Assembly: GCA_021604105.1 (NCBI GenBank)
Contig: BQIW01000007.1
Location: 1-64,000, forward strand
Reading direction: 5' to 3'
From: Nitrospirales bacterium
GTDB taxonomy: Bacteria > Nitrospirota > Nitrospiria > Nitrospirales > UBA8639
Length of the DNA stretch: 64,000 nucleotides
This document shows positions 52,871 to 60,650 of this stretch, piece after piece (positions within the stretch are counted from its first letter, which is position 1; each line of letters starts with the position of its first letter). The notes below the pieces were generated by a model, which worked only from the letters and a program-made list of their open reading frames with translations, ran no database searches and had not been told where the DNA came from. A program made the position numbers and the translations under genes.

Positions 52871-53015
52871 ATCCGTATATCCGGCATCGAACCAAAAGGA
52901 AAAAGAGGAAATGATTAGGGGATGCATGTGGTTTTTCTGGACCGATTGTTTCTGCCTGAAAATCTTGCACCGGTTTTTTAGGAGTGGTACAGTCTCGTCG
53001 CCAATCTGTGCGTTG

Positions 53016-53104
53016 CCGGAGTGGCGGAATAGGCAGACGCAAGGGACTTAAAATCCCTCGGGCTTACCAGCTCGTACCGGTTCGACCCCGGTCTCCGGCA
53101 CCAA
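53016..53104 (+). tRNA. tRNA-Leu (anticodon UAA)
   Basis: A class II tRNA of 89 nt with acceptor stem GCCGGAG/CTCCGGC, anticodon loop CTTAAAA (UAA), a long variable arm (CTCGGGCTTACCAGCTCG region), T-loop GGTTCGACCCC and encoded CCA at 53102-53104. It decodes UUA and UUG. A decayed integrase gene lies just downstream with its 3' end facing the tRNA, suggesting that it was an integration site. Confidence 0.97.
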
Positions 53105-53850: not shown

Positions 53851-54141
53851 TCATTTGCAATAAGAAACTTCACGTACCATCCGTCCTTTCATTCTGTCAG
53901 TCCCAAGAGACATTCCTCCTGAGTGTGTATGTGAAGTAATCGGTTGATCACTAATGACTCGGGGCACGGTGACCGCTATTGCCCCGGGCAACTTCCGGAG
54001 CCTGGAGAGGTGAGGATCATAAATCTTCTTCTCAATCCGTGCCAGAGTGACATAGTGCACCCCGCCCTGTTTTGCACATGCCGGAATCGGAAGCCCTCGG
54101 GCTTGCCGTATTCGCTTTAGTGCTGTCTCAAGATTTTTCAT
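53851..54141 (-). CDS. Eroding XRE-family transcriptional regulator
   Basis: A 96-aa frame. The N-terminal 60 residues are a Cro/C1-type helix-turn-helix: LETALKRIRQARGL, then HYVTLARIEKKIYDPHLSRL, RKLPGAIAVTV, close to a normal XRE domain (LAxxAGVHYVTLARIExGxYDPxLSTLRKLAxALGVTV) but with several helix-breaking changes (PIPACAKQGG, RKLPGA). The C-terminal 35 residues are unrelated and Arg/Met-rich. It may still be expressed but probably has weak function. A 26-bp inverted repeat directly upstream may have been its operator. Confidence 0.55.
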   Translation of the reverse strand: MKNLETALKRIRQARGLPIPACAKQGGVHYVTLARIEKKIYDPHLSRLRKLPGAIAVTVPRVISDQPITSHTHSGGMSLGTDRMKGRMVREVSYCK

Positions 54142-54314: not shown

Positions 54315-54674
54315 ATGCAGGACTTCGATAGCTCCAACCATCCAACCACGAGAGTCTTGACTCTTTCCGGACATCTGGATGCCCTTCAAACCCTGAGGCT
54401 TGAAGAATTTATTGAGGAGGCCCAACAGGGAACCTGTCGCCACGTCATCCTCAATCTTTCCAACGTGGCCACCATGGACCTTGGAGGAGTAGGCAACCTG
54501 TTTACGTGGTACCACGCTTTGCATATCAATCAGGTGTGTCTCAGCATCGTGGCACCGTCCCCCATGGTCCGCAATACGATGGAATCTCTCCATTTGACGG
54601 AGCTCATTTCTATCTATTCGTCCATTCCTGAAGCGATCCGTCATCATCCTGCCCCCAATTCAGTTTCCTCCTAA
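54315..54674 (+). CDS. STAS-domain protein 1
   Basis: A 119-aa single-domain STAS protein (anti-sigma-factor-antagonist fold). RVLTLSGHLDALQTLRLEEF, RHVILNLSNVATMDLGGVGN, then YHALHINQVCLSIVAPSPMV. In active antagonists the phosphorylation loop is DSSGLG or DSTGLG; here it is MDLGGVG, with no Ser or Thr, so it cannot be switched by phosphorylation there. It belongs with three related proteins at 57.6-60.7 kb. No clear ribosome-binding site before ATG. Confidence 0.82.
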   Translation: MQDFDSSNHPTTRVLTLSGHLDALQTLRLEEFIEEAQQGTCRHVILNLSNVATMDLGGVGNLFTWYHALHINQVCLSIVAPSPMVRNTMESLHLTELISIYSSIPEAIRHHPAPNSVSS

Positions 54675-55165
54675 ATATCCCCTGGGCGTGGGCATGACGA
54701 GTGGAGTGTCCAGCCAGTGGTCATACAATGATTCAACAGGTCCGCTCCCCATATCTGCCTTACACATGAAAGGAAGAATTCTGCTGCGAGTGGATAAATT
54801 TGAAACATGAACGTCTTGAAGATGCCATTTCTCATCATCAAGAAACAAAGGCGTGTGATTTCCGCCTCGAAGAATACGGACCAAGGAAACACTCGCGATC
54901 CTTAGAATGGGGAAGGATGATTGTTTATCCAGTGCAGTGGGTGTGATGGGGATCAATCCGAGAAAGGATTGTGAGCCATGTAACTAGCCTATCGAATTAC
55001 TACACCAACATGTACCGTCCAAAAAGTTGTATTTACTATGGACTTTCTTCCTGCACTTGATCTTCATCCACATCCCAGTAGGTGGCCGGGTATACCCCAG
55101 CTGGTCCAGGAAGATGGAGATGTAGACGAACTCTAAAGGACAGGAAGGACGGGTTGAATTTCGCA
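54675..55165. other. Region without a supported gene
   Basis: A 490-bp gap between STAS-1 and the end of the convergent secreted-protein gene. A minus-strand frame of 98 codons with a TTG start and no ribosome-binding site is present, but it has no recognisable domain. Confidence 0.35.
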
Positions 55166-56113
55166 CTAGTAAATTCCAATTCCAATGTCATCAATCTGAT
55201 AGATACCCAAGCTACCGTGACTGGCTTGAATTTTTACTTCGGTAATATGATCGGTCCAATCCGATAAATCCCAATTGCCCGTGGGAAGTTCATTCCAGCA
55301 ATACCAAATCCCTGGAGAAGTCGTCCCACCAGGTCCATTGGATTCCCAAGGGCTCTCAATTTCTTGCATTGGTTTGTAACACAACTGTATGGCCTGGTCG
55401 CTTTCAACTCTAATCCGGTTGAGTTGAAAAGGTTTTTTGTCATTGATTCCGCCATCCGTCACAAAGATGTGCGTTGGTCTATGACCCTCATGGGGGTGGA
55501 GAGTTCGGGGTTCTTCCCGTGGATCAATTTCTTGGCAGGTACCATCATCCTGGATAATGCCCCACTCACTAAAGCTTCCTGGGCAAGCCGTAATATGTGG
55601 ATTTTCATAGCCTAAATGAAAATGGCTCATGCTTAGAGGCGTCCAGATAGGACGGACTTCGACATACATGAGCCCATTACAGGCTTGGTGCCACCAGGGG
55701 GTAAAGGCAAAAGTATCTTCGGCGTATGGATGAGTACTGAACCCCAAGAGATCCAAGGCATCGTAATCTGAGAAATCGACCAGACATTCTTCTGACAAGC
55801 TCCGATTCGTCGGTGTTCGCAAAGTGTCCAAAGGCGAGGCCGACGTGTCATTCCGCGTCCGTGAGATATTGGCGGTTGGAAATGTGGAGGGCTTGGTCAA
55901 GGTAGGCAAAGTGGGCCCTCGATACCCAAATCCTTTTATGACGTTTTTGCCTTTAGGTTGTGCTACTAAAACCATCCGATCGGCTTTTGGGGAAACGTTA
56001 AATGTGGTTTGACCCCAACCGGCCATGGGTAACATTAAAGCGATACCCCATGCTCCAGCTCGAAGCATGACCTTAGCAAAACCTTTCTTGAGTATTTTTC
56101 GCCTCATCCTCAT
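55166..56113 (-). CDS. Exported protein of unknown function
   Basis: A 315-aa protein with an N-terminal signal peptide (basic KILKKGFAKVMLRAG, then IALMLPMAGWGQT). The mature part is rich in Trp, Cys and Pro: six cysteines (CLVDFSD, HQACNGL, TACPGSF, TCQEID, LCYKPM, WYCWNEL) suggest disulfides and an extracytoplasmic location. No family is recognised. GGAGAGAGAGG precedes two alternative ATGs (56113, 56107). It lies inside the accessory island, on the opposite strand to the STAS genes. Confidence 0.72.
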   Translation of the reverse strand: MRMRRKILKKGFAKVMLRAGAWGIALMLPMAGWGQTTFNVSPKADRMVLVAQPKGKNVIKGFGYRGPTLPTLTKPSTFPTANISRTRNDTSASPLDTLRTPTNRSLSEECLVDFSDYDALDLLGFSTHPYAEDTFAFTPWWHQACNGLMYVEVRPIWTPLSMSHFHLGYENPHITACPGSFSEWGIIQDDGTCQEIDPREEPRTLHPHEGHRPTHIFVTDGGINDKKPFQLNRIRVESDQAIQLCYKPMQEIESPWESNGPGGTTSPGIWYCWNELPTGNWDLSDWTDHITEVKIQASHGSLGIYQIDDIGIGIY

Positions 56114-56493
56114 CCTCTCTCTCCAATGTTCTCAGTGAGCACCGTAGACTTTTTCATTTCCCTGATGGATTTATAATTCATTAGTACCAAAAAGCAATTC
56201 ATATGCCATTGGCGCTTAGCGTCCATTAACCTGGGAATTTATGAAGTTTTGCATGTGAGACGGGTAGGGAGAGTTCATCTCAGGAATGTCCGCCAGACGT
56301 TTAAGGAAGGTTTGACTGTATCCAAACCGATACGATGTTTATCTGATCGAGTCAAATTCTCGGATGGTTTAAGATGATCATCATAAAAAACCATATTTTA
56401 AAAAAGTAATTAGGGCGTTTCGTAATCAACGTGTGCGAGAAAAGGCGCATGGCTACTTGACGAAACACGGTTTTTAGTTGTGCGGCCAATTTT
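56114..56493. other. Gap upstream of the IS1595 remnant
   Basis: A 380-bp stretch holding the promoter of the exported-protein gene and possibly the left end of the insertion sequence near 56400; I could not pair terminal repeats. Confidence 0.3.
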
Positions 56494-57200
56494 TTGCGTG
56501 GTCGCAAGTGTATTGTTTGCGGATCGTTCAAAATCCTGCATACGAGTCGGGGCTCTGTGAATTGCCAATTCTGTGGCAAGAGCAACAGTCTCAGTCGCTT
56601 CCGTCAGGAGGTCACGATCCTGCAGAGCTTCTATTTTTTCCAACCGGTTTACCGTCTAAGTCGGGATCTGGAGGTCGACATTAAAGTGGTCATCCGTGTG
56701 TACCAACATCTGCGAGAAGGCCTATACCATCTGGCTGAGTTGGAAGGAGTGAAACTCAAGGGAGTGATTGAGCTGGATGAGGCCTACGTTGGTGGTCGGC
56801 GGAAAGGCAAACTGGGCCGAGCCGCGTCGGGCAATTGTGTCGTTTTCTGGGTTTTCTGTGGCGGGGACCGCCGCGTCTACACTAAAGTCGTGGAATCGGG
56901 CCGTGCGGAAGAACTCATGCGGCATATCCAAGCCAAACCCGGAAAGGTTCGGTCTATTACACCGATGCTTTGGGGACTATCAGTCCTTGAAACGCTATGG
57001 CAAATATCATCCGATCAATCATCCTAAAATCTTTGTGAGCCTTCGACGGGTGAAGATCCCCATTAATGGGGTTGAGGGATTCCGGAGTTAGGCCAAACAT
57101 ATTTTGTCTCACTATCGGGGCGTCTCAAAATACCATTTTCCGATGTATCTGAATGAAATCAGATACCGATTTCATCACCGAACGGAGATTTTGGTGTCTT
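56494..57200 (+). pseudogene. IS1595-family transposase remnant
   Basis: A broken ISXO2/IS1595-type transposase. The N-terminal zinc ribbon (CIVCGSFKIL and CQFCGK), then LEGVKLKGVIELDEAYVGGR (first DDE acid), then GSVYYTDA (second) in a new frame and FGDYQSLKRYGKYHPINHPK in a third, then NGVEGFRS-stop-AKHILSHYRG (third acid) and MYLNEIRYRFHHRTE. Thus two frameshifts (about 56940 and 56970) and one TAG stop (about 57089). It is not active. Terminal inverted repeats were not identified. Confidence 0.82.
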
Positions 57201-57580
57201 CGGCCTATCGTCCTCCTTGGTCCGCTTGCCGTCGATTTTCTTTATCTCAAAATCGGTTTGTATTTAGACCTTTTGTTGCTTACACACGCTCGTATTCGTG
57301 GTGAGAGTTTTTGATGGTTTGAGTTTGGCTCCGGTTGTCTCCCGTACTAAACTCCTAGGCCCTCTTATTAGCCACGACTGGAAATAGCCCGTGTCCCCCT
57401 TCCGGTTTTTGCAGTTCCATGAGGCGTTCCTTTTTTGTGTGTCGGTTTTTCAGCAAGATCACGGATCTTTACCTCTAGTCTTAACGAGTAATTGTTAGGC
57501 TCTTTCGGAAAAGGTTGAATGTTGTTCAACGCATGAACAATTCCCATTTTCGTGGTTTTACGAATGAAGAGGTAAATTCC
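57201..57580. other. Region without a supported gene
   Basis: A 380-bp stretch between the IS remnant and STAS-2. It would include the right end of the IS and the STAS-2 promoter. No gene is seen. Confidence 0.35.
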
Positions 57581-57925
57581 ATGCTTCAAGTCTGCGAAAA
57601 ATTGAATCATCAAGCAACTGTTATCATCTTTGCGGGACGGTTTGATCGACAATCCACCATTGGTATCGGGGATCTGATCCTCGGGACCATAGACAGGAGA
57701 TGTCAACACATTATCCTGGATTTCAGGGGTATCACCGGGATAGACTCGGTGGGCCTCGGGCTCTTGTACCTTTGGTACCATAAACTCCGACCCCAACACA
57801 TTGGGCTAAGTATTGTAGGGCCTTCTCCTAGCGTCCGGGCGGCTCTGGAAGGGTGTCACCTTCTCGACTGCGTTCCGGTTTATGCTTCTGAGCACGAGGC
57901 AGTCCGACAGGAAATTTACGGTTAG
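57581..57925 (+). CDS. STAS-domain protein 2
   Basis: A 114-aa STAS protein. TVIIFAGRFDRQSTIGIGDL, QHIILDFRGITGIDSVGLGL, then LYLWYHKLRPQHIGLSIVGP and PSVRAALEGCHLLDCVPVYA. The phosphorylation loop IDSVGLG keeps the Ser after Asp, so it may be regulated by a serine kinase. GAGGTAA lies 8 nt before ATG 57581, which is preferred over upstream starts (57515, 57533). Confidence 0.84.
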   Translation: MLQVCEKLNHQATVIIFAGRFDRQSTIGIGDLILGTIDRRCQHIILDFRGITGIDSVGLGLLYLWYHKLRPQHIGLSIVGPSPSVRAALEGCHLLDCVPVYASEHEAVRQEIYG

Positions 57926-58144
57926 AACATCTTTGCTTATTGGGAATAACCGTAAGCAGGCTTCGCATTTTGTTGTAGGGAATCAGTCGTCTTAGGGCCA
58001 ACTCATGTAGGATATAATTGTAAGTCCAGAGAAACCATTTCTAATCTCTGAGAATCGAATGTTTTTATATTGCTGGAATTCGTTTTTCTTCAGACAACAA
58101 AGAACGATTGAAGACATAGATCCTACCTTGAAATTCTGCCGGGG

Positions 58145-58381
58145 TTAACGAAAGGCTTTTGCCAAGTCACGGTGGCAATCGGAGCACTTAGCCCCTTCAT
58201 TCGAGACCGTTACCAATCGAATGTAATGTGCACACCACATGCAGTAAAGATACCCTGGCCCATTAAATCGGAACGGATAGGTGGGGGAGAGCTTCCCCCA
58301 ATTGACCGCTTCTATTGGACACCAGGAAAGTCCATGAGACTGCATGGGGTACAAATCCTTTCTCAATAAATTGGTCTTCAT
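58145..58381 (-). CDS. Small double-CxxC protein
   Basis: A 78-aa protein with a C-terminal four-cysteine site, CMWCAHYIRL and KCSDCHRDLA, 20 residues apart, typical of a zinc ribbon; the second pair, CSDCH, also fits a c-type heme motif, but no signal peptide is present, so a zinc site is more likely. Start MKTNLLRK has AGAGGG 6 nt upstream. The 26-aa membrane peptide gene ends 33 bp upstream, on the same strand, suggesting one transcript. No family recognised. Confidence 0.6.
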   Translation of the reverse strand: MKTNLLRKDLYPMQSHGLSWCPIEAVNWGKLSPTYPFRFNGPGYLYCMWCAHYIRLVTVSNEGAKCSDCHRDLAKAFR

Positions 58382-58414
58382 GATCATCCCTCTAAATAGA
58401 GAAACTCGGTTTTG

Positions 58415-58495
58415 CTAACCCCGGAACCAGTGGAGGGTGAAGACTCCCAAAAACGCTATAACCGTTTCGATCAACCATAATGTTGTCCAGTCCAT
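58415..58495 (-). CDS. 26-aa single-pass membrane peptide
   Basis: A short frame of 26 codons with a near-perfect ribosome-binding site (AAGGAGGACA, about 7 nt before ATG). The product starts MDWTTLWLIETVIAFLGVFT and ends with a short basic tail, so it is one hydrophobic helix. Such small proteins are often regulators or subunits of membrane enzymes. It directly precedes the double-CxxC gene. The strong translation signal is the main evidence. Confidence 0.6.
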   Translation of the reverse strand: MDWTTLWLIETVIAFLGVFTLHWFRG

Positions 58496-59099
58496 GAAGG
58501 TGTCCTCCTTGTTCCTCCGTTGCCTTCTTTTGGTTCTTGATTCATGAAAATAGCAACCTTAATGCCACGTATTTCCAGGCATCCGACCGAAGGACCACCA
58601 GGCTATTAACTATTTGTTTTATTAAAAGAAACAGGGAAGTTGAAAAAGGGAAGTTTTGATCTGACCATGTGAGCCGGCGTATCGGAAGGAATACAAACCG
58701 TATCATTTTCACACAGGGAATGTTGTTTAAGAATGAGTACGGAATTCAGGATGATTGAAGGGCAGGAGAATTGAGGAGCAGGATAGGGGTTGACTCCTGG
58801 TGGAAGTGACTCAGCGCCTATGAGCGATCGATCAGATCAAAAAACCGAGTTGACGGGGTGTTGACGTGACCCGCCCTTCTTGGGCTCAAGAAGAGTAAAT
58901 AATAATCAAACTGGCAGGGGTTTTGAGAGATGCCCATCAAGGAAATTTTTGGAGGTTCAACATTAGATAAGAAATACCCTGCGGTTAGGTCGTGAGTCGA
59001 GTATAGCAGAGCGATAGGAGGCAATTAGTTTCCAATTACTTTCTGTGCTCATTTTGACTCGTATGGATCATTGAGTTGAAGCCGTTATAGTCCTGCTAT
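58496..59099. other. Region without a supported gene
   Basis: A 600-bp stretch between the small membrane-peptide gene and the ISL3 remnant. It carries the promoter of the two-gene unit. No other gene is seen. Confidence 0.35.
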
Positions 59100-59449
59100 C
59101 TCCTGGGCGATGTTCATCATTGGTCAATCCTTCGGATAGGGTCGTGAACTGGCTGCCCATCTTGGTCCAGGCACTGTAATCTGTTTGACTTCTTGGTGAG
59201 GACAATTCATACGAAGGACCTCGGTTTTAACCCAAGTGGAAAATTGCCACATTTCCAGATGTCACCAGCGGCGAAATTTTTGATCCTACCCGCTGGCCAA
59301 TTGCGGACATTCGGGACGCGCATGCTAGCCCGTACCAGCATCGACTGTCATCCCAACCTGTTGCCGCGTCATATCCAGATCCACAGTGATCACTTTCCAG
59401 GGATCTCGCAAGCCCAACAGAGCTTGATACAGTTCGACGTCGCGTATAG
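59100..59449 (-). pseudogene. ISL3-family transposase remnant (N-terminal part)
   Basis: A decayed transposase start on the minus strand. IRDVELYQALLGLRDPWKVI and TVDLDMTRQQVGMTVDAGTG match the ISL3 N-terminus (xxDVELYQxxLGLxxPW.V..VDLD...QQV), followed after stops by HARPECPQ (the CPxC site, partly lost), HLEMWQFSTWVKTEVLRMNC and, after a frame change, WTKMGSQFTTLSEGL. At least three stops and one frameshift. Only the first part of the about 400-aa protein remains. Confidence 0.72.
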
Positions 59450-59866
59450 TTTGGGATTTCCTTTCCAAACCCTCAACATGGCGAAAGAGCAATTGATTAC
59501 CCACATAATTTCCCGGTTCTGGTACTTTCCCTCTCCGCCTGCGCTGTTTCTTTCGCGTTGTTTACCCAGTGTCGGATGGAATTGCGCGTGGATGGCTACA
59601 CGTCGCGGTCCATCCATGTGTCCATAGAACTTTTTTACCCATTGGGTAAGGTCTGCTTGTTTGTTGATATACGTTCAGGAGACTTGAGTTAAGCTCGGTT
59701 CTATATAGACATGGTTTTTGAAGGAAATTTTGATAGGAGAACTGCGGAGGTCGGAGTATACCAAAAGTTGAATGTGGCACATCTGTTGCTGATGATTTGA
59801 AGGATAGCCAAGCAGGGGCGATTCATTATCAAAATGCGTTACGGACAACATAGGGAGGAACAGGTC
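59450..59866. other. Region between ISL3 remnant and STAS-3
   Basis: A 420-bp stretch. Minus-strand frames continue from the ISL3 remnant (59476-59640) but no longer resemble it. No gene is supported. Confidence 0.35.
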
Positions 59867-60199
59867 ATGTTGGTACGAGCACGGTGGGAAAACGGAACGA
59901 GAATCTTGATGCTTTCCGGTCGGTTCGATAAATTTGGACGGGTTCCAGTGGAAACGGCGTTGGCGGCGGGAGAAGGACGACACTGCCATCACGTCGTCAT
60001 GAATTTTTCACGAGTATCATCTATGGATAGTGCAGGCATTGGAAGATTATTGTTGCTTTACCATTCCCTTCGAAGGAAAGGGATGGCCTTGACGGTGATC
60101 AATCCAAAGCCCTCTGTTAGGGCCCTTTTGGATTTGGCGGGTTTACCCACCATTATTCCGATTATGCAGGAAAAGCCTGAGATCCGATCGGTGGCCTGA
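59867..60199 (+). CDS. STAS-domain protein 3
   Basis: A 110-aa STAS protein. RILMLSGRFDKFGRVPVETA, HHVVMNFSRVSSMDSAGIGR, then LLLLYHSLRRKGMALTVINP and KPSVRALLDLAGLPTIIPIM. The loop MDSAGIG has one Ser, close to the consensus. GGGAGGAA lies about 8 nt before ATG 59867, preferred over ATG 59834. STAS-4 follows 76 bp later and is likely cotranscribed. Confidence 0.86.
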   Translation: MLVRARWENGTRILMLSGRFDKFGRVPVETALAAGEGRHCHHVVMNFSRVSSMDSAGIGRLLLLYHSLRRKGMALTVINPKPSVRALLDLAGLPTIIPIMQEKPEIRSVA

Positions 60200-60275
60200 T
60201 CACCTGACAATTGAATTTCTTTAAGTTGCAGAAGTGGAAAACCGAAATGGAAATTATCGAGACGTGATACTTACG

Positions 60276-60650
60276 ATGCCTACCCAGCCGACTCTTATTG
60301 ACGATATGCATGTTATTACATTCGGGGCATACTTTGATGGGTCTGCGGAACCTGCTTTAGAGGCGGCTGTCTTACAAGTGCAGGAAGTACAAGGCAAGCA
60401 CATCATCCTGAATTTGGAAGCTCTGACCACACTGAATAGTCGCGCCTTAGGCAAATTATTTCTCACCTATCATCATCTCAATCGGAATCACATTCGACTC
60501 AGTTTGGTCAACCCTAAGCCGGCAGTTCGTGAAATGTTAACCTTTGTCAATTTTCCGCAGATCGTGCCCATTTATGATTCAATTGATGCCGTGGTGGCCT
60601 TTGAGCAACGTCAGATGGAATCCCCAACCCTGCCACGGCGAGCGTGGTAA
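60276..60650 (+). CDS. STAS-domain protein 4
   Basis: A 124-aa STAS protein. HVITFGAYFDGSAEPALEAA, KHIILNLEALTTLNSRALGK, then LFLTYHHLNRNHIRLSLVNP and KPAVREMLTFVNFPQIVPIY. The loop is LNSRALG: the Asp is replaced by Asn and the Gly before Leu by Ala, so it departs from the normal switch site though a Ser remains. Start MPTQPTL gives the same N-terminal length as STAS-3; GTG 60234 upstream is the alternative. Confidence 0.84.
   Translation: MPTQPTLIDDMHVITFGAYFDGSAEPALEAAVLQVQEVQGKHIILNLEALTTLNSRALGKLFLTYHHLNRNHIRLSLVNPKPAVREMLTFVNFPQIVPIYDSIDAVVAFEQRQMESPTLPRRAW

Follow-up and report, generated by a model that had tools for sequence, protein, structure and literature searches.

Introduction

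The four proteins described here, referred to as S1 to S4, have their closest described counterparts in SpoIIAA and RsbV of Bacillus. Like these, they consist of a single STAS domain, the Bacillus proteins are their best relatives of solved structure by both sequence and fold, and the D-S-x-G-[LI]-G loop is found in S2 and S3. Unlike the Bacillus systems, however, no kinase is encoded in the operon, S1 has no Ser in the loop, S4 carries Asn-Ser, and the S3 and S4 genes lie behind a predicted sigma-54 promoter.

Sets of STAS proteins that feed several inputs into one switch are already known from mycobacterial SigF, where several STAS antagonists act on one anti-sigma factor, RsfB via phosphorylation and RsfA via disulfide formation (PMC7693655). 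That switch (RsfA, RsfB and several RsbW) shares the presence of several STAS antagonists with the locus studied here, but in our case, which concerns another phylum, convergence is only something we infer and the sigma target is putative. In Pseudomonas, HsbR and HsbA control FliA and biofilm, and a switch made of receiver, phosphatase and kinase plus STAS, acting onto FliA, is established (PMC6482189). The HsbR-HsbA and CrsR-CrsA systems of Pseudomonas and Shewanella (PMC6482189) resemble ours in that receiver, PP2C phosphatase, HATPase and STAS are linked with FliA or motility; the receiver, phosphatase and HATPase functions are divided here between two proteins, a receiver-SpoIIE and a receiver-HATPase, encoded beside a FliA-like sigma factor. 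In contrast to those systems, S1 to S4 are multiple and encoded away from this cluster (on contig C1, see below), and the link to FliA is one of gene neighbourhood only. Lastly, Vibrio SypA and Bordetella BtrV are STAS-only proteins, as are S1 to S4, and control biofilm or secretion, not always via a known sigma factor (PMC8256260). SypA and BtrV come with a cognate kinase/phosphatase and with known phenotypes, whereas the kinase and phosphatase of S1 to S4 are candidates.

A literature search returned no paper that joins STAS domain, sigma54 and Nitrospira, and the words STAS and sigma factor are absent from two genome papers on this Nitrospirales lineage, whose members are important nitrite oxidisers in the sea and in wastewater. 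A STAS set that is conserved, has a natural Ser-less member and includes a sigma-54-wired pair would offer a testable case of several inputs to one partner switch, and S1 in particular a case for the natural role of a non-phosphorylatable anti-anti-sigma-like protein.

Genome and locus

The stretch of DNA analysed (the window) comprises the first 64 kb of the 76-kb contig C7 of a metagenome-assembled genome (MAG; 4.9 Mb, 217 contigs, 96% complete). Its named close relatives are Nitrospirales/Nitrospiraceae MAGs, including UBA8639 and NPIRA06, and family UBA8639 corresponds to Nitrospira lineage IV (PMC12342949). Judging by the names of these relatives, the organism is a nitrite-oxidiser relative, most likely belonging to lineage IV. 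The STAS genes are flanked by core genes, an OmpA/Pal-like lipoprotein gene on one side and potABC on the other:

54315..54674 (+), S1, single-domain STAS protein, loop MDLGGVG (Leu at the SpoIIAA Ser58 position), Pfam STAS 57.6 bits
56494..57091 (+), broken IS1595-type transposase between S1 and S2, truncated frames, NCBIfam transpos_IS1595 5e-8
57581..57925 (+), S2, single-domain STAS protein, canonical loop IDSVGLG, Pfam STAS 50.3 bits
59867..60199 (+), S3, single-domain STAS protein, canonical loop MDSAGIG, Pfam STAS 51.6 bits
60276..60650 (+), S4, single-domain STAS protein, second gene of the S3-S4 pair, loop LNSRALG, Pfam STAS 50.3 bits
61150..63934 (+), potABC-like ABC transporter genes (Pfam ABC_tran, TOBE_2, BPD_transp_1), neighbours of S4 by synteny

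Four related STAS proteins in two lineages

All four reading frames had been taken from the sequence alone to encode STAS proteins, and this is borne out by the profile search, in which each matches Pfam PF01740 as a single domain at 50–58 bits against a cut-off of 22.6. The start of S3 at 59867 is backed by a conserved GGAGG and a conserved N-terminus. The proteins are also related to each other, as had been claimed: S2 to S4 show 27–34% identity to S1, the four can be aligned with one another, and the helix that follows the loop has an invariant Y-H. The shared pattern that the sequence-only reading quoted for them stood only in part, as some of it is generic to SpoIIAA-like STAS proteins (HIVLNL, DS.GLG, Y, SPAV.R) and S3 has HVVMN, not H[IV][IV][IL][ND].

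With the NCBIfam model TIGR00377 (anti-sigma factor antagonist) the four score 45–49 bits, near but under the cut-off of 53.45, and we therefore call them RsbV/SpoIIAA-like rather than members of that family. By profile, the nearest solved structures are Bacillus SpoIIAA proteins, and an AF2 model of S1 adopts a STAS fold (pLDDT 79.6, pTM 0.75) whose best PDB match is SpoIIAA in the SpoIIAB complex. An identity as MlaB was considered and rejected, given at most 23.3 bits with NF033618 (cut-off 90) and neighbours that are potABC-like and not an mla operon.

The window's own genome contains 23 STAS matches, approximately 15 of them single-domain. In a phylogenetic tree, S3 and S4 group with a tandem pair from another genus (support 98/81), while S1 and S2 group with two more paralogues encoded elsewhere in the genomes (97/99). 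The two groups are sisters, albeit through a weaker joining branch (94/64) and with a program warning of long branches. The idea of a single array of four thus gives way to two lineages, an old S3-S4 pair on the one hand and S1/S2 with two further paralogues on the other. We tentatively favour, on the strength of these profiles and this tree, the proposed reading that S1 to S4 are RsbV/SpoIIAA-like anti-anti-sigma (STAS-only) proteins of a lineage-specific expansion. The genes of another STAS paralogue group, S6 (loop IDSMGLG; L091:6102-7119 and L097:5356-6507), are followed by one for a lone receiver protein.

Conservation of the locus

Of the 21 genomes of the genus, 18 have the S3-S4 tandem pair, and in nearly all of those with a readable flank potABC follows a few hundred bases downstream. 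S2 is found at the same place in 7 genomes, before S3-S4 in at least six, and the order S2-S3-S4 is kept in several species. S1 precedes S3-S4 in the window and in two more genomes and is located elsewhere in G011 and G019; in G019, but not in G011, it adjoins Wza/Wzc-like exopolysaccharide genes. Pairwise dN/dS against the window copy, with saturated comparisons left out, was 0.08–0.11 for S1, 0.08–0.15 for S2, 0.07–0.17 for S3 and 0.13–0.28 for S4, values (0.07–0.28 overall) that indicate purifying selection on all four genes.

The earlier description of the locus as an accessory island is wrong, since the genes sit between core genes in genus-wide synteny and have low dN/dS. The broken IS1595 transposase, of which no homologue was found in the relatives' copies of the locus, is the sole accessory-looking piece. 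The four proteins do not fall into unrelated families, and their genes do not show loss from every close relative coupled with high nonsynonymous rates; judged by this genome comparison, they form a conserved, selected set of putative regulators and not an accidental island.

The phospho-switch loop

The loops MDLGGVG, IDSVGLG, MDSAGIG and LNSRALG read exactly as had been reported. At the position of SpoIIAA Ser58, S1 has Leu in 6/6 orthologues, with the entire loop identical in all six. The S2 loop is likewise identical, with Ser present, in 7/7 orthologues; that of S3 is [ML]DSAG[IL]G with Ser in all 14 aligned orthologues, and S4 retains Ser in 14/14. The invariant Leu of S1 and the retention of Ser in S2, S3 and S4 indicate that one of the four, S1, is truly non-phosphorylatable at the usual site, as far as residues can predict it, in agreement with the claim that one copy has lost its Ser. 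The companion claim, that one copy (S4) has lost its Asp, applies to the window copy with its Asn but not to the family: Asn occurs only in the window's own clade while deeper orthologues have Asp, a distribution that marks the Asp-to-Asn replacement as a recent, shallow change in one clade.

Predicted sigma-54 control of S3-S4

Upstream of S3 we found two conserved elements:

59775..59790 (+), TGGCACATCTGTTGCT, predicted sigma-54 promoter for the S3-S4 operon, exact -24/-12 consensus, 76 nt ahead of the start of S3
59627..59656 (+), GAACTTTTTTACCCATTGGGTAAGGTCTGC, conserved element further upstream (by approximately 140 nt, counted from the -24 element), containing the palindrome TTACCCATTGGGTAA at 59635-59649

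A sigma-54 site with at least 10/11 consensus positions is present in each of the 19 regions upstream of S3 in the genus, two of which come from G010, whereas shuffled sequences are expected to give 0.08 regions per set. In nine of the 19, the whole upstream regions are only 42–49% identical, yet the promoter is kept; its -24/-12 bases are essentially invariant across the 19 regions while the spacer bases vary. The 30-nt upstream element is recognisable in all 19 as well, although the exact palindrome TTACCCATTGGGTAA is not in all. It is a probable binding site for the activator, to judge from this conservation. A genome-wide search for further copies, which might have delineated an activator regulon, returned this one occurrence only.

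The genome encodes RpoN (442 bits against a cut-off of 277) and approximately 27 strong matches to sigma-54 activators. Exact sigma-54 sites number eight genome-wide, as compared to three for the reversed pattern, and two of the others precede FlgE/F/G-type and FliL genes. A search before S1, S2 and the other STAS paralogues gave no convincing sigma-54 site. S3-S4 is a long-established tandem pair, preceded by a conserved, predicted sigma-54 promoter.

Candidate kinase and phosphatase

The sequence-only reading saw neither a kinase nor a phosphatase near the STAS genes, and indeed a profile search detected no RsbW-like (PF13581) or SpoIIE-type (PF07228) gene on the window contig. Extended to the whole genome, the search gave a mixed answer, namely one good RsbW-like candidate and one strong SpoIIE-type phosphatase, neither of them near S1 to S4. 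Both are in the same cluster:

L084:3583-9198 (= G000:C1, approximately 47.6–53.2 kb), flagellar/chemotaxis cluster with receiver-SpoIIE, receiver-HATPase, STAS and FliA-like sigma factor

The best kinase candidate is the receiver-HATPase protein (49.9–50.9 kb of C1), which shows N-box and G-box motifs; the receiver-SpoIIE protein is the sole strong phosphatase match. Adjoining them are STAS and chemotaxis genes as well as the gene of a sigma-70-type factor that has regions 2, 3 and 4 and is FliA-like by context. Twelve HATPase_c_2-like matches were found in the genome, and those inspected after the first are ordinary sensor kinases. A receiver-HATPase homologue occurs in 18/21 genomes of the genus, singly in all but G017, which has two; G004, G013 and G016 have S3-S4 without a kinase match, in assemblies that are 83–84% complete. 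Other families of the order encode related STAS proteins within a chemotaxis cluster, in a compact module with receiver-SpoIIE and receiver-HATPase, and the module of G040 has two STAS genes. The C1 cluster holds STAS genes of its own, with loops MDSSCVQ and VDSSALG, and a shared use of its kinase by S1 to S4, also as the possible decoy array of the sequence-only reading, is therefore something we infer. Moreover, since the MAG is split into 217 contigs and 96% complete, a second kinase could be missing from it.

A working model and its alternatives

The kinase/phosphatase pair on C1, the kinase homologue in 18/21 genomes and the compact modules elsewhere lead us to a working model in which S1 to S4 would provide extra inputs to the C1 partner switch, with S1 as the non-phosphorylatable member. 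Resting on counts, neighbourhoods and residues, this model is the likeliest of those considered, though somewhat short of an even chance. It retains much of the earlier suggestion of a multi-input, partly non-phosphorylatable set: the set is multi-member, selected and conserved, S1 is without Ser, and there is one kinase candidate elsewhere, but the proteins form two lineages and no island. Sigma-54 and its activator would turn on S3-S4, and the fresh, unphosphorylated STAS proteins would bind the RsbW-like receiver-HATPase, thereby releasing whatever the kinase holds. The receiver-SpoIIE phosphatase would reset the Ser-bearing members, while S1, non-phosphorylatable at the loop site, might bind constitutively, with an effect that depends on how much of it is made. 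The switch may decide between motility and surface life, as suggested by the kinase gene adjoining the FliA-like sigma factor and by the sigma-54 sites before flagellar genes; this flagellar link comes from gene neighbourhood. The model in its complete form, a sigma-54-controlled switch with several STAS proteins that titrate a single kinase and differ in how far they can be switched (two canonical, one Asn-Ser and one non-phosphorylatable), we consider unlikely to hold in every part. If true, it would couple the output of sigma-54 to a decision on motility or on a second sigma factor.

A possible, though on balance doubtful, explanation is that S1 to S4 are adaptors for a non-sigma target without an RsbW kinase, such as PotABC or an exopolysaccharide or c-di-GMP enzyme, phosphorylation being secondary or absent. 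MlaB, which binds an ABC ATPase, is a precedent for a STAS-transporter adaptor, and SypA and HsbA are precedents for action on an exopolysaccharide or c-di-GMP enzyme. The near-constant proximity of S3-S4 to potABC fits such a role, but S4 is separated from potA by approximately 500 nt and by a distinct promoter-like site, a related pair, that of G022, lacks potABC as a neighbour, and the MlaB profile scores far below its cut-off. Similarly, the exopolysaccharide genes beside S1 are found in G019 only, G011 having S1 elsewhere, and the absence of a kinase gene near S1 to S4 has to be weighed against the phospho-Ser kept in S2, S3 and S4.

We think it rather improbable that each STAS protein has a separate partner, possibly a non-RsbW kinase (two-component HATPases, hybrid kinases), and that the cluster reflects the accumulation of paralogues. 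The supply of ordinary sensor kinases among the 12 HATPase_c_2-like matches, the lone receiver next to S6 and the mobility of S1 between loci speak for this possibility, whereas the order S2-S3-S4 kept in several species, the S3-S4 pair kept nearly throughout, and the RsbV-like Ser and loop of S2 to S4 speak against it. Finally, an accessory island in which the STAS copies are redundant or decaying and serve no selected function, a reading to which the IS1595 remnant and the gene-poor DNA around S1-S2 in the window might point, is contradicted by synteny, dN/dS in all four genes and promoter conservation, and is highly improbable.

Other genes at the locus

A tRNA-Leu (taa) gene at 53015-53103 (+) lies directly upstream of the S1 region, and an Rfam search of the gene-poor stretches of the window gave nothing above cut-off except one tRNA. 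Repeats among the S1 to S4 genes amount to short chance matches at most. Divergent to S1 is a small XRE-type HTH gene (Pfam HTH_3; 53851-54141, -), relatives of which are found near S1 in G003, G004 and G015. A 315-aa protein with an N-terminal hydrophobic stretch and without a Pfam or NCBIfam match is encoded at 55166-56113 (-), and a 96% identical copy is located near S1 in G004.

Between S2 and S3, a divergent unit of two small-protein genes (58145-58567, -) forms the second conserved sigma-54-like unit at the locus:

58552..58567 (-), sigma-54-like promoter TGGCATTAAGGTTGCT of the unit, 10/11
58415..58495 (-), 26-aa single-TM microprotein MDWTTLWLIETVIAFLGVFTLHWFRG, AGGAGG site, kept with synonymous changes in 7 genomes
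58145..58345 (-), 66-aa CxxC...CxxC (Cys4) zinc-ribbon-like protein, no Pfam match above cut-off

Homologues of the zinc-ribbon-like protein are found in 17 of the 41 genomes searched, and within the genus the family has copies at further locations. At 19/20 loci the zinc-ribbon gene follows a sigma-54-like site that scores 9/11 or more, and similar TM microproteins are encoded before most of the other zinc-ribbon copies examined.
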